In this document: positions 12,002 through 51,481 of the stretch, piece after piece
How the letters are laid out: each line of letters begins with the position of its first letter
How positions within the stretch are numbered: the stretch's first letter is position 1
Notes under the pieces: model-generated
Seen by the model: the letters and a program-made list of their open reading frames with translations, nothing else
Databases searched by the model: none
What the model was told of the DNA's origin: nothing
Source: an uncultured Bacteroidales bacterium
Lineage (GTDB): Bacteria; Bacteroidota; Bacteroidia; Bacteroidales; P3
Assembly (NCBI GenBank): GCA_947165255.1
Contig: CAMUZR010000002.1
Location: 62,001-126,000, forward strand
DNA: 64,000 nt
Reading direction: 5' to 3'
Translations under genes and position numbers: made by a program

Positions 12002-12340
12002 TTAGGCGCAGGGGAATGACGGAGGGGCGCGAAGGCTGAGGGGACCCCAAGAACTGGGGAGAAGGGCTTCGCTCACTAGCACTGGGAAGTCCCAATGGCC
12101 AAGGCAGACGGCTTGGAGCTGGGGCTGGTGGTCGTCGACGAGAAAGATGTAAGTGGTAAGTTCGTCGATTAGCTGCAGTTCGATGGCGCTGTGGTCGTGC
12201 GGCTGCTTGGCAAAGGGGTGGGAGTGGACCACCACACGGGTGGGCAACTGGTGTGAGTGGACGAAAAAATGGGTGCCGATAAAGTACGACAGGTAGAGGG
12301 TTGCAAGGAGCAATCCTATGATTTTAGAGTGTCGTGCCAT
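12002..12340 (-). CDS. Small His-rich membrane-anchored protein heading the metal-efflux operon
   Basis: This 112-residue protein has one N-terminal hydrophobic segment (about 8-24, anchor or uncleaved signal). It then has histidines in pairs: [19 protein letters not shown], and a DDHQ further on. It lies between the operon promoter at 12412 and the adaptor gene. Proteins of this look precede czcBAC-type operons in many Bacteroidota and are usually left hypothetical. A role as a periplasmic metal-binding or sensing chaperone is inferred from the histidines and position only. The C-terminal 30 residues are low in charge and not recognisable. Confidence 0.7.
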
Positions 12341-12386
12341 ATCAGTCTATTGATTCTATGTTGTTATTATTGTGGTGGTTGGCATT

Positions 12387-12404
12387 TTAGGTACTCCAAC
12401 CTAA
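12387..12404. promoter_or_regulatory. Palindrome TTAGGT-N6-ACCTAA, candidate metal-regulator operator
   Basis: Perfect 6-bp arms sit immediately downstream of the -7 element at 12412-12419, so the palindrome should cover about +1 to +18 of the efflux transcript. The arms are identical to those of the DtxR/IdeR box, although the spacer here is 6 rather than 7 bases. Binding of a DtxR/MntR-family repressor is inferred. Confidence 0.5.
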
Positions 12405-12411
12405 GTTGTTG

Positions 12412-12419
12412 CAAAGATA
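12412..12419 (-). promoter_or_regulatory. -7 promoter element (TATCTTTG) of the metal-efflux operon
   Basis: Exact match to TAnnTTTG on the minus strand, 72 bases before the start codon of the His-rich protein. Transcription should start near 12405. Confidence 0.75.
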
Positions 12420-12892
12420 GTACTTTTTTTTAATTTTATGAATTCTATTTTGTATATGATTTTTCGCAAAGGTTCGAAACGTTGAAAGGGAGTCTGTTTT
12501 TTTAGTAATGGGTGTTGGTGATTTTTCTTTTGTATAGTGGCTGAGAAATAGTTTGGAAGCAGTGCTTTGACCAGTTGTCCAATTCCATAGCGGTAGGGGT
12601 TTGATTCGTCTTTTTTGCAAGGTGGTTTTGTGGTGGCGTTTTTATGCTGAGAGGGATGAAAAAAGGTGGCGTTGTTTCTATCTTATGTAAACTATTGTGG
12701 GATAGGTATTAAAGAGTGGAAGCGGCGTTAAGAAACTTCCACGGCGGGCGGCAATGCCCACGCCTAGTTGAGGGGGAGTGGCATTGTGGAACGAGACTGA
12801 TACGGCTGTCGCCTGGGTCTTCTTCCGCGGGCATTTGATAAAATTGTTTATAAAAAAACTGGGAAGCGGGATTGTATGTCGAAAATATTGTG
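12420..12892. other. Intergenic region with an imperfect inverted repeat
   Basis: No supported gene. TTCCAC and CAATGCCCAC (12737-12761) face GTGGCATTG and TGGAA (12778-12791), which could form a bulged hairpin. Small open frames here lack initiation context and family resemblance. Confidence 0.35.
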
Positions 12893-43672: not shown

Positions 43673-45235
43673 CTATTTCCCTTTGAGCAGGGACCCCAGC
43701 AGGCCGCGCCCCAGTTTGAAAGCTTCGTTGACCAGTTCACGCTTAGCTTTGGTGACTACCATTTTTTGCAGGCTGCCACCCAGGCTTTTATCTTTGGCGC
43801 GTTGGCGCTCACGTTCTTCGGCTTTGTGTTTGCGTTCTTCGGCTGCCAGCAGGCGTTCCTCTTCACGCTGTTTCTTAGCCTCCTCTTTTTGCAGGCGTTC
43901 CTCCTCTTTCTGCTGTTGGGCAAGGGCTTTCTCTTCCTGCTGTTTAGTAAGTCTCTCGGTGAGGATTTCGTATGCAGACAGGCGGTCGACCTGGGTGTCG
44001 TATTTGCCATAAACCATAGAGGTGCGTATAATCTGCTGACGCTCTTCGATAGGCAAGGCCCCAGCTTGACCCTCGGGGGGCAGCACACGGGCGCGTTCTA
44101 CCATGGTGGGTATGCCTTTGGCATCTAGGAAGGAAACAAGGGCTTCGCCAACGCCCAGCTCGGTAATGACTTTGGCAGTGTCAAAGGCGGGATTAGCACG
44201 GAAAGTCTCGGCAGCGGTGCGGACAGCCTTTTGGTCGCGAGGAGTATAGGCGCGGAGGGCGTGCTGCACACGGTTGCCCAGTTGGCTAAGGATGGTGTCG
44301 GGAATGTCGTCGGGGTTTTGGGTGCAGAAATAGATGCCTACGCCTTTGGAGCGGATGAGGCGGACCATCTGCTCTATTTTTTCCAATAGTGACTTGTTGA
44401 TGTTGTTAAAAAGCATGTGGGCCTCGTCGAAAAAGAAGACCAACTTGGGCTTATCGAGGTCGCCCACCTCGGGCAGCTGCTCGTAGAGTTCGCTCAGCAG
44501 ATAAAGTAGGAAGGAAGTGTAGACCTTTGGGGAGTTGATAATTTTGTCGGAGGCCAAAATGTTGATGACACCCTTGCCCTGGCGGGTCTGCATAAAGTCG
44601 TAAATATCGATAGCGGGTTCGCCGAAGAACTGGTTGCCGCCCTGGTCCTCAAGGCTTAGAAGACTGCGCTGGATGGCACCGACGGTGGCCACGCTGATGT
44701 TGCCGTAGGCGGTGATGTAGTTGGCACGGTTGTTGCCCACCTCTTCCAGCATTTTGCGCAAGTCTTTCAGGTCGATGAGCAGCAGCTGTTGGTCGTCGGC
44801 TATACGGAAGACCATATTGAGAACGTCGCTTTGAGTGTCGTTGAGATCGAGGATGCGAGAGAGGAGCATAGGCCCCATCTCGCTGACGGTAGTGCGGAGG
44901 GGGTGACCATCCTTGCCGAAGACATCCCAAAGGCAGACGGGGAATGCTTTATAGGCGAAGCCGAAATCGGAAAGGCGGTTGTCGGCAATGCTTTTCTCGA
45001 AATGTACGTTGCCGCCGCCTGCTTTGCCCACTCCGGAGAGGTCGCCTTTAATGTCGGTGGCAAACACAGGGACACCCATGGCGCTGAAGGATTCGGCTAA
45101 ATTCTGCAAGGTGCAGGTTTTGCCAGTGCCGGTAGCACCGGCGATGAGGCCGTGTCGGTTGGCCATTGAAGGGAGAATGCCGAGGTGAATTTCACCGGCA
45201 ATTGCATTGAAAGGGGTACCAGTGTTGTCTATCAT
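43673..45235 (-). CDS. HerA-like / DUF853 (YjgR) P-loop ATPase
   Basis: The 520-residue ATPase has Walker [10 protein letters not shown] at 32-40 and [11 protein letters not shown] soon after. Walker B is [12 protein letters not shown] near 268, with a sensor-like [11 protein letters not shown]. This matches the DUF853/YjgR family related to HerA/FtsK hexameric DNA motors; its role is poorly known. Residues about 420-495 are a highly charged Glu/Lys/Arg/Gln coiled coil, followed by a short hydrophobic tail. The stop codon lies in the loop of a small palindrome (GGGAAA-TAG-TTTCCC). No nuclease partner (NurA-like) is adjacent. Confidence 0.88.
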
Positions 45236-45319: not shown

Positions 45320-45347
45320 CTAAATTCCAGTTGCAAGTGCAATACTG
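45320..45347 (+). repeat. 28-bp direct repeat, left boundary of the RHS island
   Basis: The sequence begins CTAAATTCCAGTTGC and matches 50711-50738 at 26 of 28 positions in the same orientation. Together they bracket the whole RHS toxin region. It resembles an insertion-sequence terminus, but no transposase gene remains. Confidence 0.6.
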
Positions 45348-45406
45348 AGCTTAAGGTGAACTTACTTGAGTGGCAATAAAAAACAAACCTCTTCGTTATA
45401 CAATTG

Positions 45407-46621
45407 ATGATGAAAAAACACGGCATACAAGACCCTCCCACCTTTACGGGCATGGAGCGCGTTGCCGCCCGCATAGGGGACGGCGGCCTGGATGTGGGCT
45501 TCTACCTGTCGAACACCGGCAGTCTCCACGCAAGGGCCTACAGGCTGTTCGGCCAAAGCCTTGCGCAGGTGAACGGTCGGGGGCTTGAAACGAATGACGT
45601 GGACTGCATCATGGACGGGGAAATGCCTGTCGAGGAGTTGGGAATCCCCATTGAAGCGATACCCGAACAGATGTCGGCGACCGTTGGGACGGAATACGGT
45701 GAGTTTTCCGGTGCGATGCATCTGGTTTCGAATGCCGGCGAGAGTCCCGAGGTGTATTACTACCATGGAGACCACCTTGGCAGTGCGAGCTGGATTACCG
45801 ACTCGGCGGGGACAGCTGTTCAGCACCTACAGTACCTGCCATTTGGCGAACGCTTTGTTGACCAGCGCACGAGCGGCTACTGCGAACGTTTCACCTTTAC
45901 TGGCAAGGAACGCGACAAAGAGACTGGCTTTGGCTATTTCGGCGCAAGGTATCTGGACTACGAGCTGATGGCCATGTGGCTGAGCGTCGACCCGCTGGCG
46001 GATAAGTATCCTGGCATTTCCCCGTATGCTTATTGTGCTTGGAATCCTTTGAAGCAGATTGACCCAGACGGGAGAGAGATGGGCGATTTCTACTCCAAAG
46101 ATGGAACATATTTGAATACAGATGGAAACAATGATGGCAAAGTGTATATTGTAAAAGATCAAGCTTGGGGTACCAAAATCAAGAATGATAGGCTAAGCGG
46201 TAAAAATGCGACTCTCGATCTAGATAAAGTTGAAAGATTCATGGATGAGAATGGTGACGACCTGTTTTTGACAGAAGACATTATAAGAAAGATTAGTTCT
46301 GCAGAAAATTTGTCAAGAGATGGCAATGAGCATGGATATTTTTACAGGAGAGATAATGAGACGCCTGAAAGAGAACTCGAAAGCTTTCCAGACCATTTGA
46401 CTTTTAATAAGTACCCTGATTTGTGGCTGTCAATGCACACCCATCCTCAAGAACAAGATGCCACCATGTCAGAACAAGACCATGCTGACATGGATCAAAT
46501 TCCAATAAATATCGTAATAGGAAACAATAAGCCATCTGAATCAGGTAATGTCAAATCTACAATTTCCCAACTTACCGAGTCGTCAATTTTTACAGGCATG
46601 AGGAACCCGCCTTTTCAATGA
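45407..46621 (+). CDS. Headless RHS core protein with JAB-like metallopeptidase toxin tip
   Basis: This 404-residue protein starts at ATG 45407 (a TTG one codon earlier is also possible). It lacks the signal peptide and long YD-repeat shell of a full RHS protein. It keeps only the last repeats (YYYHGDHLGSASWITD, YLPFGE) and the RHS-associated core (FTGKERDKETGFGYFGARY, WLSVDPLADKYPGISPYAYC, IDPDGRE, ending near residue 225). The variable tip that follows is AT-rich and contains HTHPQEQDATMSEQD, an HxH...SxxD arrangement like JAB/MPN metallopeptidases used as toxin tips in polymorphic toxins. It is probably an orphan toxin module that can swap onto a complete RHS gene. The candidate immunity gene follows after 58 bases. 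Confidence 0.75.
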   Translation: MMKKHGIQDPPTFTGMERVAARIGDGGLDVGFYLSNTGSLHARAYRLFGQSLAQVNGRGLETNDVDCIMDGEMPVEELGIPIEAIPEQMSATVGTEYGEFSGAMHLVSNAGESPEVYYYHGDHLGSASWITDSAGTAVQHLQYLPFGERFVDQRTSGYCERFTFTGKERDKETGFGYFGARYLDYELMAMWLSVDPLADKYPGISPYAYCAWNPLKQIDPDGREMGDFYSKDGTYLNTDGNNDGKVYIVKDQAWGTKIKNDRLSGKNATLDLDKVERFMDENGDDLFLTEDIIRKISSAENLSRDGNEHGYFYRRDNETPERELESFPDHLTFNKYPDLWLSMHTHPQEQDATMSEQDHADMDQIPINIVIGNNKPSESGNVKSTISQLTESSIFTGMRNPPFQ

Positions 46622-46679
46622 ATATGACGTGTATCAATAAAATGGTGAAACGAATCAATAATAAAAACAAATAGCCGCG

Positions 46680-47354
46680 ATGAAACAATTATTCTGTCTT
46701 TTTGTGCTGTGCCTGTTGAACATGTCCTTCCTATGTGCTCAGGATATGCAAACAACATATCCGGTATCAAATGTTTCCCGGCTTTATGAGCCAATCCTTA
46801 AATATATATGTAATTATTCTTATCGTGATACAAGTGAGAAGGCATACGCTAATTGCGCATTTTTTGTGAATGGACAGTTCGTCGGATCAAGTGCAGGTTT
46901 TGTGTTATTCACAAATACGGAAGGGAACAGAGACTCTGCCTTTTTCATGCAAGATGGTAGTATGCTTATTTTTAGACGACAAGATTATAATAGAATGTTT
47001 CCTGGTAATACGCTAAAGGATGTGTTAGAAAATGTAAAAGGCAGGGATGAAATAACTATTGTATACGAAATCGATACCCGAGATAAATCCTATATGCGTG
47101 GTGATAGAAAAACGTGGGTGAATGGGACTTTCGTATTTGACAGTAAATTAATGCTCTTATACACATCCCCCAGACTCCCATATTGCAGTTATGTGTGTTT
47201 CTTTACAGCTAGAAAGTATTATAAGTATCCCTATTGTTATAATGTCTTTTGGAAATTTGGATCCAAATCCGATATTCGATATTATGGCGATAAGAAATAC
47301 GAAAAAAAGGTAGATCGTAATATGAGAAAAGTATGCAGTACTGCTTATTTTTAA
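46680..47354 (+). CDS. Secreted small protein, candidate immunity protein for the first RHS tip
   Basis: This 224-residue protein has a clear signal peptide (1-20, SFLCAQ). I do not recognise the mature part, which is rich in Tyr and Lys with several Cys (YCSYVC, YPYCYN). It follows the JAB-tipped RHS fragment on the same strand and shares its AT-rich composition. In polymorphic toxin loci the gene directly after the toxin usually encodes immunity; that is the only basis for the proposal. A signal peptide would place protection in the periplasm. Confidence 0.55.
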   Translation: MKQLFCLFVLCLLNMSFLCAQDMQTTYPVSNVSRLYEPILKYICNYSYRDTSEKAYANCAFFVNGQFVGSSAGFVLFTNTEGNRDSAFFMQDGSMLIFRRQDYNRMFPGNTLKDVLENVKGRDEITIVYEIDTRDKSYMRGDRKTWVNGTFVFDSKLMLLYTSPRLPYCSYVCFFTARKYYKYPYCYNVFWKFGSKSDIRYYGDKKYEKKVDRNMRKVCSTAYF

Positions 47355-47379
47355 TCCCCAATAATTTTTTATTTATGAG

Positions 47380-48207
47380 ATGCTAGTTCCTAATAACGAT
47401 ATCACATTCTCTTTCACGGGGAAAGAGAATGACGCGGAAACAGGGTATGGTTACTTCGGAGCGCGGTATATGGACCACGAGCTGATGACCATGTGGCTTA
47501 GCGTCGACCCGATGGCGGATAAATACCCATCCATTAGTCCGTATGCTTATTGTGCTTGGAATCCTGTGAAGCTGGTTGATCCAGATGGAATGGAAATATA
47601 TATTATAATTGAAGGAACCAAATATTATCTAAAAATCGGAAAAGGGGATGTTCTAAGTTGGCAAAGTAAAGATGGTCAGACGTACAATCCTACTACAGAT
47701 TCATGGGCAGGGAAACTAACAGGCGCGATGGAGAAATTGATGGAATGCGAAACAGCTAATACCCTAATTAGATGTATAGTAAAAGATAATAGGGAATTAG
47801 AAATAAAAAATGACAAGTATGGAAATAGGGCTGACAACGATAATGCCGAATACATCAAATGGATGGGAAAAAATCGAATTGGGGGATCATGTCTATATCA
47901 AGAAAAGGACCAATATGGCAATAATGTTTTTAGTAAACCTAATGGAAGCAATTCACCTGCATTCATTAGTTTAATACATGAACTTGCACATATTCATGAT
48001 ATGTGGTTTGACATTGTCCCTGATAGAAATAGCACTTGGGAAAAATGTACTCTTAGCAATGGAAAGCCTTACAACATACCTAAAGCTGAAATGTATGCGT
48101 GTTGGGTTGAAAATAAAGTCCGATACCATTTTGGGTTACCATTAAGGTTTTACTATTATTATGATTCGCCTAGTCATTGTGGTGGTAATACTGGTGCAAA
48201 TTATTAG
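47380..48207 (+). CDS. Headless RHS core protein with HExxH zinc-metallopeptidase toxin tip
   Basis: In this 275-residue protein the RHS core is reduced to about 70 residues (FTGKENDAETGYGYFGARYMDHEL, WLSVDPMADKYPSISPYAYC, VDPDG). The AT-rich tip has the zinc-binding helix HELAHIHD at about 209-216. A later AEMYACWVENKVR may supply the third ligand Glu, an arrangement like M91/NleD-type effectors. It starts at ATG 47380 with no signal peptide. A peptidase toxin activity is inferred from the motif and the fusion. The candidate immunity gene begins 17 bases after it. Confidence 0.75.
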   Translation: MLVPNNDITFSFTGKENDAETGYGYFGARYMDHELMTMWLSVDPMADKYPSISPYAYCAWNPVKLVDPDGMEIYIIIEGTKYYLKIGKGDVLSWQSKDGQTYNPTTDSWAGKLTGAMEKLMECETANTLIRCIVKDNRELEIKNDKYGNRADNDNAEYIKWMGKNRIGGSCLYQEKDQYGNNVFSKPNGSNSPAFISLIHELAHIHDMWFDIVPDRNSTWEKCTLSNGKPYNIPKAEMYACWVENKVRYHFGLPLRFYYYYDSPSHCGGNTGANY

Positions 48208-48224
48208 ACTCAATAATAATCAAT

Positions 48225-48821
48225 ATGAAAACGATACGAATCTTTACCTTTTTCATCTTTCTGTTTTGGCAATGTCCGGTGATTAGTGCGCAAAACACTG
48301 TAAATATTATACCTCTCATTCATTCTGCTATTATAGAAACAGGTTCTGACGAAATAAATAATGAGCGACATGTTATCGAAATCCTCAAAGAATTGCCATG
48401 TAATTTTGATGCAGATACAGTATTTGCCATAGAGTATTTCTCATATATAGGTAACTTTCTATATTTAATGTATTGGTCTCAAAAATTTCGTTATTCTATA
48501 GAAGGTCCTATGGATGACACATTAAAAGTGTTTCGCGAGCGAAGATTTGAGAAATGGCTGATAGAGCAGGTTGAAGAATGGAATAAAGATTCCATAATGG
48601 GAGCCCAATGCGGTGTATACGGACCAGACGAAACACATTATGTGATACGTATCATTTTCAATAGTGGGCAAATCCAAATGGATTCATTTAGTTTTGGCCA
48701 TATTGAAACACCTGCTGACTATAAAGATGATGTCTATTTGTGGGAATATTGGATTAATAAAGAACAAAAAGAACCTATCGCTACATATAAATGCCCGACC
48801 CAGCGGATGTTCGCACCGTAG
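48225..48821 (+). CDS. Secreted small protein, candidate immunity protein for the HExxH tip
   Basis: This 198-residue protein has a signal peptide (1-22, VISAQ). The mature part is not recognised: mixed alpha/beta, acidic, with many aromatic residues (YFSYIGNFLYLMYW). The last few codons run into the palindromic repeat at 48798, so the true C-terminus may have been altered by repeat insertion. Its place directly after the HExxH-tipped RHS fragment suggests immunity. Confidence 0.5.
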   Translation: MKTIRIFTFFIFLFWQCPVISAQNTVNIIPLIHSAIIETGSDEINNERHVIEILKELPCNFDADTVFAIEYFSYIGNFLYLMYWSQKFRYSIEGPMDDTLKVFRERRFEKWLIEQVEEWNKDSIMGAQCGVYGPDETHYVIRIIFNSGQIQMDSFSFGHIETPADYKDDVYLWEYWINKEQKEPIATYKCPTQRMFAP

Positions 48822-48910
48822 GCCCCGCCCGACCCGGCGGATGTTCAATCCGTGCCGTTGGTCTGGATTTGCAATCTAGACCCATTGAGTATAAGGATTT
48901 TCAATCCGCA
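48798..48910. repeat. Cluster of REP-like palindromes between the second and third RHS cassettes
   Basis: Repeated GGATnTTCAATCC-type and GGATTTGCAATC-type palindromes occur here, including GTCTGGATTTGCAATCTAGAC split by a short loop. CGGCGGATG also occurs twice in slightly different contexts. Similar hairpins recur at 50646-50695. Confidence 0.6.
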
Positions 48911-48939
48911 AAAGCAATGAACTGAACCGAAATAGCGCG

Positions 48940-49026
48940 TGTGGCAATAAAACAGCCACATCTTCGTTATCCTAGTGATGATGATTAAAAACGGCATACA
49001 AAACAGTATTGCTTTCACTGACAAAG
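48940..49026 (+). repeat. Repeated leader shared by the first and third RHS cassettes
   Basis: The stretch from TGGCAATAAAA through CTTCGTTAT and the doubled ATG to GGCATACAA matches 45370-45430 with scattered differences. The two open frames therefore begin at the same point of an ancestral RHS gene. Confidence 0.6.
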
Positions 49027-49775
49027 GCCCCCGCAAGGGGCGGCGAACACCTTTGAATATAATAAATGATAGTGAGCAACGCGACGAGGAGAAAGAATGG
49101 TCCCGCGGACCTTTCGCCAGCGAGCGAGGCGACGAGCCGAGGAGCGGAATACCGAATGGCTCTACCTACTTATACACCTATTTCGGTGCAAGGTACATGG
49201 ATCATGAGCTGATGACTATGTGGCTGAGTGTCGACCCGATGGCAGACAAATACCCGAGTATTAGCCCATACAACTATTGTATGTGGAACCCCATCAAATT
49301 AGTGGATCCAGATGGAAAAGATACCATAAAGATCCACATAGATAAAGGGGCTATTGAAAAAATAGCATCTGACGGTAACCATCGTATTAATTATTATAGG
49401 AATGGAGAACTTATTGATTCATATTCAATTGAAAAAGACAAATGCACGTTCCGAACAAGATCGATTGATTATGAAAATACTGACCAAAAGATAGACTGTC
49501 GTACTTATCATTTATACTGTAGCAATGACAAGATAGGGGAACAAATATTTAATAAAATAGCAAGTTTAGGTTCGCCCGTGGAATGGGACTATTATTCGAT
49601 TAGAGTGAACGAAGAAACCATTAATGGGGATTTATCTTCCTCAGGGATTGAGGACAAAATGGTACATTCGCCGGGAATATATACTGCAAATAATGTATTA
49701 TTTTGGGATCATTATCATCCTAATAATAGTTCAGACAGTTTCTACCCATCTCACAAGGACCAAGACCATGTGTAA
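48978..49775 (+). CDS. Headless RHS core protein with JAB-like tip, interrupted core and early stop
   Basis: This 265-residue protein starts at ATG 48978. The opening NGIQNSIAFTD parallels the first cassette, but 49027-49160 encodes an unrelated GC-rich, palindrome-filled insertion where the FTGKE motif should be. The core resumes at YFGARYMDHEL, WLSVDPMADKYPSISPYNYC and VDPDGKD. The AT-rich tip ends with FWDHYHPNNSSDSFYPSHKDQDHV, again HxH...SxxD. An in-frame TAA at 49773 ends it, but the same frame continues for 40 coherent codons (CTIFHGGKSMDF..., to 49898), so the domain is probably truncated by a point mutation. The candidate immunity gene overlaps that extension. Confidence 0.65.
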   Translation: MMIKNGIQNSIAFTDKGPRKGRRTPLNIINDSEQRDEEKEWSRGPFASERGDEPRSGIPNGSTYLYTYFGARYMDHELMTMWLSVDPMADKYPSISPYNYCMWNPIKLVDPDGKDTIKIHIDKGAIEKIASDGNHRINYYRNGELIDSYSIEKDKCTFRTRSIDYENTDQKIDCRTYHLYCSNDKIGEQIFNKIASLGSPVEWDYYSIRVNEETINGDLSSSGIEDKMVHSPGIYTANNVLFWDHYHPNNSSDSFYPSHKDQDHV

Positions 49776-49888
49776 TTATTAAAAGGAGCCAGATGTACAA
49801 TTTTTCATGGTGGTAAATCAATGGACTTCCAGAATTATGTTCCAACAGGTGACAATAAGTATATTTCATTCAAAGCTTTTTCAGAAAT

Positions 49889-50584
49889 ATGGTACTAATT
49901 TGCAAGATAATAAGAACTATCCTATGGGGGATGATTCTCTCTCATCCTTTTGGGTGTATTGGACAAAACGTCTACAATTCAAGAACCATATACTATAATA
50001 TGGATACTATGCAGTGCGTAGATAAGGATGCAAGATTCTGGGGAGGAGATAGCCTAAATATTCATGCGGGCAATCCTGATAGTACTGGATTGTATTGTGT
50101 ATTAGCAGACAATATTGAAGTACCTCTTGTGACAGTAAACGACGATATTATTATTCACTTATTAGATTCTTGCTTAATTGATGCGACAAAGGATATTTTT
50201 TTACAGTTTCCAGATTCATCCGGATATTTCGTGGAGTTAGAAATAAATAATGTGGTAGAAGATTCCTTGAAATTAAAAATTGCCATAACTCTACACCCTA
50301 ATTATTATATGGCAGAGATATTATCGCGTGATCTAAATGAAATTATTTATGATTTGAATGGCATCAAATTGTGGGAATTGCATGGTTGTTTTTTTAGGAA
50401 TGATATCTTGTGTGTGATAGTTACTCGAGGGGGGATGGATTATAAAAGAGCCTCCTGTCTTTTCTCTCAAACAGAATCTACAATAATGCTGGCAATTTAC
50501 TCCCCATTCATCTGGTTAGTAACGGACGAATATCCCGTACATGGGTATTATTATTATTGTAGCGATTGTGGTTCTAATTATTAG
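49889..50584 (+). CDS. Secreted small protein, candidate immunity protein for the third RHS tip
   Basis: This 231-residue protein has a hydrophobic signal-like N-terminus (to about residue 26, GCIGQ). The mature domain is beta-rich and not recognised (DSTGLYCVLADN; LQFPDSSGYFVELEIN). It begins inside the 40-codon extension that would be translated if the stop of the preceding RHS fragment were absent, and so would have overlapped it by a few bases in the ancestral arrangement. Immunity function is inferred from position. Confidence 0.5.
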   Translation: MVLICKIIRTILWGMILSHPFGCIGQNVYNSRTIYYNMDTMQCVDKDARFWGGDSLNIHAGNPDSTGLYCVLADNIEVPLVTVNDDIIIHLLDSCLIDATKDIFLQFPDSSGYFVELEINNVVEDSLKLKIAITLHPNYYMAEILSRDLNEIIYDLNGIKLWELHGCFFRNDILCVIVTRGGMDYKRASCLFSQTESTIMLAIYSPFIWLVTDEYPVHGYYYYCSDCGSNY

Positions 50585-50645
50585 CTCTCTGTTATAAATA
50601 AAAAAAGGGCTATTGGGATATGCCTTCTTGAAGAGTGTTCTTGTT

Positions 50646-50695
50646 GGGCTGGATTTGCAGTCCAGCCCAAGGGGGTAACAGGATTTGCAATTCGC
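50646..50695. repeat. REP-like palindromes at the right end of the RHS island
   Basis: A perfect GGGCTGGA/TCCAGCCC hairpin (50646-50653 with 50661-50668) encloses TTTGCAG. A GGATTTGCAATTC half-palindrome follows. Both are related to the cluster at 48798. Confidence 0.6.
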
Positions 50696-50710
50696 AATAA
50701 CAATGTCCGC

Positions 50711-50738
50711 CTAAATTCCAGTTACAAGTGCAACACTG
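50711..50738 (+). repeat. 28-bp direct repeat, right boundary of the RHS island
   Basis: Matches 45320-45347 at 26 of 28 positions, same orientation. Its reverse complement begins CAGTGTTGCACTTG, which looks like an insertion-sequence end. Confidence 0.6.
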
Positions 50739-50797
50739 TGTAGAAAAAAAACACCAAGGTAATAATAATATATAGGGTTTTGCGTTATAGTGGAGTT

Positions 50798-51481
50798 ATG
50801 ATTAAAGAAAATCTTACTAAGGTGCGTTCAACCCTTGCCGACGGAGTGCGGCTGATTGCGGTGTCAAAGACCAAGCCTGTGACTGACCTACAGGAGGCGT
50901 ATGATGCAGGCCAACGGTTGTTTGGCGAGAACAAAGCGCTGGAAATGCGCGACAAACATGCCGTGCTGCCAAATGATATAGAATGGCATTTCATTGGCCA
51001 TTTGCAAACCAATAAGGTCAAATATATTGCTGAGTATGTCAGCATGATTCACAGCATTGACAGCCTGCACCTGCTGGAGGCAGTTGACAAGGAGGCTACA
51101 AAGCATGACCGCGTGATTGACTGCCTGCTGCAGTTCCATATTGCCACCGAGGAAACCAAATTCGGATTGGATATGACAGAGGCTCAGGCTTTGCTCGAAT
51201 CGCCTGAATATGCGCAAATGAAGCATGTGCGCATCGTGGGTGTGATGGGCATGGCCACAAATACTCCCAATCGGAACTTGGTAAGGCAGGAGTTCCACAC
51301 ATTGCATTCCTATCGAGACCAACTGGCTGCAAAATATTTTATTGGGCATCCGGAGTTTAAGGAAATCTCGATGGGAATGTCTCATGATTATGACATTGCA
51401 ATGGAGGAGGGTAGCACTCTGGTTCGCATAGGTTCTTCTATCTTCGGCGCCCGCGACTATGGTGTCCCCGTTAACGACTAA
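50798..51481 (+). CDS. YggS/PLPBP-family pyridoxal phosphate-binding protein
   Basis: This 227-residue protein starts at ATG 50798; an in-frame TTG 18 bases earlier is less likely. It is a single-domain fold III PLP protein that helps keep vitamin B6 and amino-acid pools in balance. The cofactor lysine is Lys24 in AVSKTKP. Other family motifs are GENKALEMRDK, WHFIGHLQTNKVK, MGMATN and the phosphate-binding SMGMSHDYDIAMEEGSTLVRIGSSIFG. It is the first gene after the RHS island. Confidence 0.93.
   Translation: MIKENLTKVRSTLADGVRLIAVSKTKPVTDLQEAYDAGQRLFGENKALEMRDKHAVLPNDIEWHFIGHLQTNKVKYIAEYVSMIHSIDSLHLLEAVDKEATKHDRVIDCLLQFHIATEETKFGLDMTEAQALLESPEYAQMKHVRIVGVMGMATNTPNRNLVRQEFHTLHSYRDQLAAKYFIGHPEFKEISMGMSHDYDIAMEEGSTLVRIGSSIFGARDYGVPVND

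Follow-up and report, generated by a model that had tools for sequence, protein, structure and literature searches.

In this study, we analyzed a 64,000-nucleotide (nt) stretch of DNA from an uncultured Bacteroidales bacterium, hereafter the window (positions 1-64,000), and within it an island of RHS gene fragments, which was compared with related loci across the genus. The window lies on contig C2 of genome G000; other G numbers denote genomes of the genus, C numbers contigs, P numbers database proteins and L numbers loci. The island (45320-50738) consists of three RHS core fragments, each of which ends at DPDG and runs on into a different tip, and the list of open reading frames (ORFs) places a small ORF, here called the follower, behind each of the three tips on the same strand. 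The island contains the following features.

45320-45347, + strand: relic of an insertion sequence (IS) end at the left island edge, a 28-nt direct repeat of 50711-50738
45370-45433, + strand: leader copy of unit 1, 81% identical to 48941-49004
45404-46618, + strand: unit 1, RHS shell and core (to about 46072) and tip 1 with HxHP...SxxD, its C-terminal frame apparently lost
46680-47354, + strand: follower 1, putative exported immunity gene with a signal-peptide-like N-terminus
47380-48207, + strand: unit 2, headless RHS core and tip 2, Peptidase_M91 (HExxH), undamaged as far as seen
48225-48821, + strand: follower 2, putative exported immunity gene with a signal-peptide-like N-terminus and relatives beside tip-2-like tips
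48857-48919, + strand: palindromic repeat 5' of unit 3, with a 78% copy at 50643-50705
48941-49004, + strand: leader copy and start region of unit 3, 81% identical to 45370-45433
48975-49775, + strand: unit 3, headless RHS core with an insertion, and tip 3 with HxHP...SxxD and an early stop
49889-50584, + strand: follower 3, putative exported immunity gene with a 95% relative beside tip 3 in G044
50643-50705, + strand: second copy of the palindromic repeat at the right cassette end, the right border of the G044 cassette match
50711-50738, + strand: the same IS-end relic at the right island edge, direct repeat of 45320-45347

The RHS core model TIGR03696 scored 58.1 bits in unit 1, 54.2 in unit 2 and 34.2 in unit 3 (cut-off 32.5), and the third core copy shared 83% and 76% identity with the other two over 139 nt, far beyond chance. 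The G+C fraction was 0.576 in the core of unit 1 and about 0.33-0.40 in the tips. A previous sequence-only reading of the window had described three headless cores that end at DPDG and pass into different AT-rich tips, each trailed by a small gene on the same strand; the cores, junctions, tips and small genes were all recovered, except that unit 1 is not fully headless, about 150 residues of RHS shell preceding its core. Against PHROGs, units 1 and 2 matched a single RHS-region family and nothing else was found, and an Rfam scan (E up to 0.1) returned no match. In unit 3, about 50 residues have been inserted into the core, or have replaced part of it, without loss of the reading frame (about 49021-49177), and this piece may be a small mobile element. 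It starts with an inverted repeat like CCCCCGCAAGGGG, the same kind of insertion interrupts the core of a C1 unit (L030, near 12300-12450), and similar letters occur at cores of other species (L085, L145, and L146).

Recombination of tips through the core appears to have left its products in the sequences. Three database proteins combined heads and tips differently, with the switch near DPDG in every case: P0021 carries tip 3 on the head of unit 1, P0025 carries tip 3 on the head of unit 2, and P0014 carries tip 1 on the head of a C1 unit of G000 (90% over 114 residues). Moreover, window positions 49178-50709 recurred on contig C20 of the sister species G044 at 97.65% identity over 1,533 nt, in a match that starts inside the core and finishes at the palindromic repeat. 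By-eye comparison showed that this G044 cassette adjoins genes neighbouring the C1 island of G000, i.e., it occupies another locus. The pattern of the palindromic repeat was found in 14 of 119 genomes and in ten copies in G000, eight of them at RHS islands. The 23 loci checked contained 49 copies, of which 27 lay within 2 kb of a core and 22 lay farther away or in core-less loci; 16 of the 27 stood 149-153 nt upstream of a core on the same strand. This mixed placement indicates a dispersed repeat that also forms part of the units. G044 has an expanded set of 52 copies, 14 forward and 38 reverse.

Tips and followers were found to be linked throughout the genus. The follower set comprised the 147 units in which a tip no shorter than 110 residues was accompanied by a follower; by the rule used, a further 16 units lacked one. 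Homologous followers accompanied 48 of 171 homologous tip pairs but only 1 of 10,560 other pairs, compared with a mean of 0.76 and a maximum of 5 in 1,000 permutations, and the follower started no more than 30 nt from the tip stop in 135 of the 147 units (the search opened 30 nt before the stop). By this genus-wide linkage, the orphan modules seem to carry cognate immunity genes. The head/tip reassortments, the cassette present at two loci and the tip-follower linkage together support recombining cassettes, in agreement with the earlier proposal of a reservoir of toxin/immunity cassettes that recombine through the core.

None of the three followers in the window belonged to a Pfam or NCBIfam family above cut-off. 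Among 120 genus genomes (G000 included), followers 1, 2 and 3 occurred in 2, 8 and 5 genomes, and a core lay within 1.5 kb at 2 of 2, 4 of 9 and 6 of 7 places, respectively. All three follower-2 places with a core outside G000 (in G044, G052, and G121) have a tip-2-like tip, and five of the seven follower-3 places have a tip-3-like tip. The remaining two are the C3 island of G000 itself, with a core and a short tip, and G054, where no core lies within 1.5 kb and an array ends about 1 kb before. In G123, an open follower 1 (89% identity) is preceded by remnants of tip 1, most of which has been deleted, and an RHS core is located behind the follower. A second relative of follower 2 in G000, interrupted by a stop, lies at C4:50200-50691 (L257) with no RHS core within 1.5 kb.

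Most followers look exported. Our own hydropathy rule, applied to N-termini, called 120 of 147 followers export-like, 41 with a lipobox-like word, while it passed 12 of 147 shuffled followers, 6 of 147 toxin ORFs themselves, 58 of 192 other genes of the same loci and 32 of 121 such genes of 120-300 residues (Fisher p 4e-20). The absence of secretion signals stated by the sequence-only reading thus holds for the tips and not for their followers. The Pfam scan of tips (E up to 0.01) covered 148 units out of the 163 whose tips have 110 residues or more (the other 15 being 11 long and 2 long partial units, a duplicate and a short unit) and yielded, among others, Toxin-JAB1 in 17 units, M91 in 8, Ntox44 in 5, and M10, M12-type and M23 in 2 each; with one Hydrolase_2 and one YkuD tip, the two M23 tips represent cell-wall enzymes. 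Export-like followers and these M23, Hydrolase_2 and YkuD tips suggest envelope targets, and the simplest reading is that many RHS toxins of the genus may act in the envelope.

With regard to the tips of the window, tip 2 matched Pfam Peptidase_M91 (PF14891) with its HExxH (E 1.1e-5; 26.3 bits against a curated cut-off of 25). Profile comparison connected it, at 85% probability, to a tip cluster containing a long RHS gene of G111, which carries an M91 match of its own, while a sequence search of solved structures gave nothing significant for this tip (best E 0.28). In tips 1 and 3, HxHP...SxxD was invariant across the alignments of relatives (17 and 14 rows, respectively); we take it to be a JAB/JAMM motif, and the JAMM glutamate was not located in these two tips. 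Neither tip matched a JAB profile above the curated cut-off. Prok-JAB appeared below cut-off (E 0.0095-0.12) in all four scanned relatives of tip 1 and was absent from all six scanned relatives of tip 3; Toxin-JAB1 of Pfam matched neither tip, and profile comparison with Toxin-JAB1 clusters was not significant. Searching solved-structure sequences with the two family alignments recovered the RHS core only and nothing convincing in the tip regions, and AlphaFold models of the families were poor (predicted local distance difference test score, pLDDT, 40.6 for tip 1 and 45.6 for tip 3). On this sequence evidence tip 1 is likely a JAB domain and tip 3 possibly one, neither being proven. In addition, the first 26-35 residues of tip 1 (window about 46073-46170) match the starts of otherwise different tips (L079, L151, and L145), indicating that tips are mosaic at a finer scale as well.

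The motifs named in the sequence-only reading therefore exist, and its view that all three tips are metallopeptidases stands for tip 2 by the M91 match, while tips 1 and 3 look like JAB by motif, with no profile match above cut-off. Even with a JAB assignment the word metallopeptidase would be insecure for these two, since Zhang and colleagues suggested that the JAB domains of toxins might cleave nucleic acids instead of proteins (PMC3482391). An all-peptidase set had also been considered unusual in Bacteroidota. This argument is weak, because 38 of 169 genus tips contain HExxH and 11 of them a JAMM-like word (0.9 and 1.3 in shuffled tips, respectively) and JAB-bearing RHS toxins of Bacteroidetes were already described in 2012 (PMC3482391).

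Two of the three window tips, tips 1 and 3, look damaged when set against their relatives. Tip 1 matched 18 proteins, one of which was that of the window itself. Sixteen of the remaining 17 were aligned, and the C-terminus of tip 1 departs from the reading frame common to all 16. For tip 3, 13 relatives were found and aligned, and its stop comes about 45 residues short of the closest full relative; past this stop, 11 of the 13 extend by at least 30 residues and P0021 by 4, while P0024 ends at the same residue. Intact relatives exist. Within the genus, 199 of 203 residues of tip 2 aligned with a G044 tip, and no damage was seen.

Headless RHS arrays are common in the genus. The core family was present in 83 of 119 genus genomes, and the named core relatives (75 loci) were mainly uncultured rumen and hindgut Bacteroidales, with one Candidatus Colimorpha. 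The fetched loci, which were chosen for having hits and are not a random sample, contained 197 core hits, comprising 155 headless, 17 partial, 13 contig-end-cut and 12 long ones, and their coordinates showed that runs of units are often divergent. G000 itself (2.93 Mb in 43 contigs, 98.46% complete) had 12 core hits. Ten of them, sharing the core type of the window by their letters, formed three islands (four on C1, three on C2 in the window and three on C3) with open frames of at most 553 residues; the two C4 hits had another core, one of them in a 2,017-residue frame. This is the only long RHS gene of G000 (L029:7338-13373; 2,011 residues from ATG, with a HEYGH tip), and an orphan of the same core type lies behind it (L029:6253-6819).

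The parent-type gene of G111 contains SpvB, FG-GAP, TcdB, RHS and M91 domains. A polymorphic toxin of TcdB/TcaC type, with signal, SpvB, propeller repeats, TcdB, RHS and variable tip, was accordingly found in G111 and not in G000, and lipobox-like N-termini were seen by eye in five long genes. When 1,800 residues of the G111 full-length RHS protein were used as query, 34 of 119 genus genomes matched, 27 strongly (E below 1e-20) and 7 weakly, including G000 and G044; the match in G000 was the C4 gene alone, at 30%. In G107:C15 (L132 and L133), a full-length RHS gene is flanked by a divergent run of seven headless units, with two more behind.

From these results it is fairly probable that the island represents a short array of cassettes, each pairing a toxin tip with an immunity gene and related to the large lipoprotein-like SpvB/TcdB/RHS toxin of other species of the genus, and that it is stranded here, given that no full-length gene with its core was found in G000, two tips look damaged and the immunity genes are open. 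A cassette would consist of core, tip and immunity gene, followed by a leader with the palindromic repeat. Homologous recombination may swap such cassettes, with the RHS core as left arm and the repeat/leader or the next core as right arm, an event seen through its presumed products; a swap could set a new tip on a full-length gene and move the old one into the array. The most probable target site of the toxins is the victim's envelope. With such a site of action, the immunity proteins would be exported and a headless tip in the cytoplasm would be harmless to its owner. At present the array would serve, if anything, as an immunity store and tip donor.

Several observations weigh against this interpretation. 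First, the expectation of the sequence-only reading that a complete RHS gene with the same core would exist elsewhere in the genome failed: no full-length RHS gene with the window core was found in G000, although a 98.46% complete draft of 43 contigs may miss one, and the C4 long gene has another core. G044, the sister that shares the cassette, has a weak match alone (E 2.1e-4). With no full-length donor found in G000 and a weak match in G044, this clade offers no example of a tip swapped to a delivered toxin, and the lack of a strong match in G044 slightly lowers our confidence. Second, in 123 of the 171 homologous tip pairs, homology between the followers could not be detected. Wide occurrence of followers without RHS tips had been raised as a difficulty; it was not observed for followers 1 and 3 and applies in part to follower 2, whose relatives lack a core within 1.5 kb at 5 of 9 places, in a family confined to 8 of 120 genomes. 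Third, purifying selection on the followers is not shown, as changes were few and the ratio of non-synonymous to synonymous rates (dN/dS) was 1.1 for follower 1 between the window and G123 (8 synonymous and 35 non-synonymous) and 0.46 for follower 3 between the window and G044 (6 and 11). Fourth, the export call comes from our own hydropathy rule and not from SignalP, 15 of 38 other window genes pass it, and the hydrophobic N-terminus of follower 3 falls narrowly under its threshold. Finally, a majority of tips have no Pfam family, and most of the families found do not reveal the target.

The best surviving alternative, which we consider unlikely, is that the tips are dead weight and the followers persist as orphan immunity genes against neighbours that carry full-length toxins. 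It would account for the broken tips 1 and 3 beside followers 1 and 3 that are still open, for the G123 locus, where tip 1 is mostly deleted and follower 1 open at 89%, and for the missing full-length donor of the window core in G000; the weak match in G044 makes it slightly more plausible. Decaying tips would fit poorly, however, with the length of headless tips across the genus, of which most are full length (175-224 residues after the core in 115 of 146 headless ORFs uncut by contig ends), or with tip 2, which is undamaged as far as seen, and the dN/dS of 1.1 for follower 1 does not speak for a retained immunity gene.

Somewhat less likely still, headless units might be genes in their own right, expressed from their own leaders as toxin-antitoxin pairs inside the producer or released after lysis, as proposed for Salmonella orphan rhs. 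The leaders offer part of the case. A TAnnTTTGC motif, which we take to resemble Bacteroidales promoters, was present in 37 of 145 headless units when the 250 nt 5' of the core were scanned, versus 8 of 135, 2 of 140 and 7 of 145 in controls, and it sits at preferred distances from the core. It occurred in 21 of 32 first units of runs, in 8 of 94 internal units, and in 8 of 19 units with too little upstream sequence for placement. That 16 repeat copies stand 149-153 nt ahead of a core points the same way. Internal promoters have also been reported in Salmonella rhs (PMC7043789). Yet the motif was absent from units 2 and 3, the two window units examined, and the immunity proteins look exported, so that they could hardly neutralise a cytoplasmic toxin. 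That the followers are unrelated neighbours rather than immunity genes is very improbable: they lack a Pfam/NCBIfam family and follower 2 also occurs away from RHS, but the tip-follower linkage lies far beyond permutation and 135 of 147 followers begin within 30 nt of the tip stop.

Apart from this alternative, the promoter motif on first units suggests that the arrays may be transcribed. In many internal units a start codon is followed by an ACATA box, for which a small number of distances to the core recur. A conserved peptide encoded by this box was rejected, because its distance and frame vary between leader groups. Single leaders folded with z below -2 in 26% of 149 cases, against 5% of 139, 7% of 140 and 10% of 29 in the control sets. 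A conserved leader hairpin, as RNA or recombination site, was discarded too, since RNAalifold found no common helix in two of three groups and a weak four-pair one in the third. Integron-like cassettes were considered as well, on account of the palindromes. Returning to the cassette array, a broader view of the genus can be put forward tentatively, as a possibility falling well short of probable: headless units, far from being leftovers, may form an organised arsenal of often divergent runs with a promoter-bearing first unit, leader modules on internal units (149-153 nt ahead of the core in the clade of the window), envelope-aimed tips and exported immunity.

Outside the island, its two neighbours are the following.

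43673-45235, - strand: left neighbour, HerA-like ATPase (HerA_C)
50780-51481, + strand: right neighbour, YggS-type protein (Ala_racemase_N)

Among the best 29 of the matching loci, the HerA-like ATPase and YggS were adjacent in five, with gaps of 180, 242, 359, 799 and 1,213 nt; in the other 24, YggS was not seen within the 1.5 kb examined, in some because of contig ends. The adjacency of the two genes in these five relatives supports an insertion of the island between them. The five intergenic stretches contained no 28-nt border repeat and no strong match to the island. The border repeat has 16 copies in G000, and its position close to contig ends at ten of them indicates that the element breaks the assembly. 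On C3 it adjoins a transposase with HTH_38 and rve domains, presumably IS30-like. The border repeats were consequently dismissed as integration sites, matching IS ends elsewhere in G000 and missing from the five empty sites.

The island resembles the orphan rhs-CT/rhsI modules of Enterobacteriaceae. In Salmonella LT2, such a module consists of a headless core fragment, a tip and an immunity gene, with recombination through the shared core (PMC3967940). The Salmonella orphans lie behind the main rhs gene, share 522 bp at 95% and usually miss start signals, whereas here no main gene of the same core was found, the several loci are often divergent, and leader modules and first-unit promoter motifs are present. 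The Tox-JAB-1/Imm65 pair of Bacteroidetes RHS toxins combines a JAB-motif tip with a lipidated immunity protein (PMC3482391); JAB-motif tips behind RHS are likewise seen here, with Toxin-JAB1 matches in 17 of 148 genus units, but neither tip 1 nor tip 3 of the window matches that family. In the text of the 2012 survey, Imm65 was the only apparent lipoprotein among the immunity proteins (PMC3482391), while export-like followers are the majority in this genus. A studied precedent for envelope action is the C-terminal HExxH peptidase of VgrG2b, which does no harm in the cytoplasm, is toxic in the periplasm and has an exported immunity protein, PA0261 (PMC6899460). By analogy, tip 2 may be comparable in its HExxH and exported immunity, although VgrG2b is borne on the spike of a type VI secretion system and not on RHS. 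The TANFOR/BaCT toxins of Bacteroidetes are large and have variable tips and downstream immunity genes (PMC7073777), but differ from the toxins of the island in their N-terminal TANFOR part and proposed link to the type IX secretion system; the word 'orphan' is absent from the text of that paper. No description of headless RHS arrays in Bacteroidales appeared in the titles and abstract openings among the matches listed, in a literature whose coverage excludes most subscription journals. Orphan rhs modules and such storage are thus already known, and what is new is the export-like immunity proteins, the multi-locus runs with first-unit promoter motifs and the leader modules.

The export-like majority of followers points to envelope killing as a main mode of RHS toxins in this genus, and envelope action provides a testable reason why intact headless tips do not kill their owner. 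The cassette borders, formed by the core and the leader/palindromic repeat, make tip exchange measurable in metagenomes. If the headless units do form an organised arsenal, the separation of tip and target into different compartments would allow safe expression, broad immunity and a supply of ready tips for a surface RHS protein.

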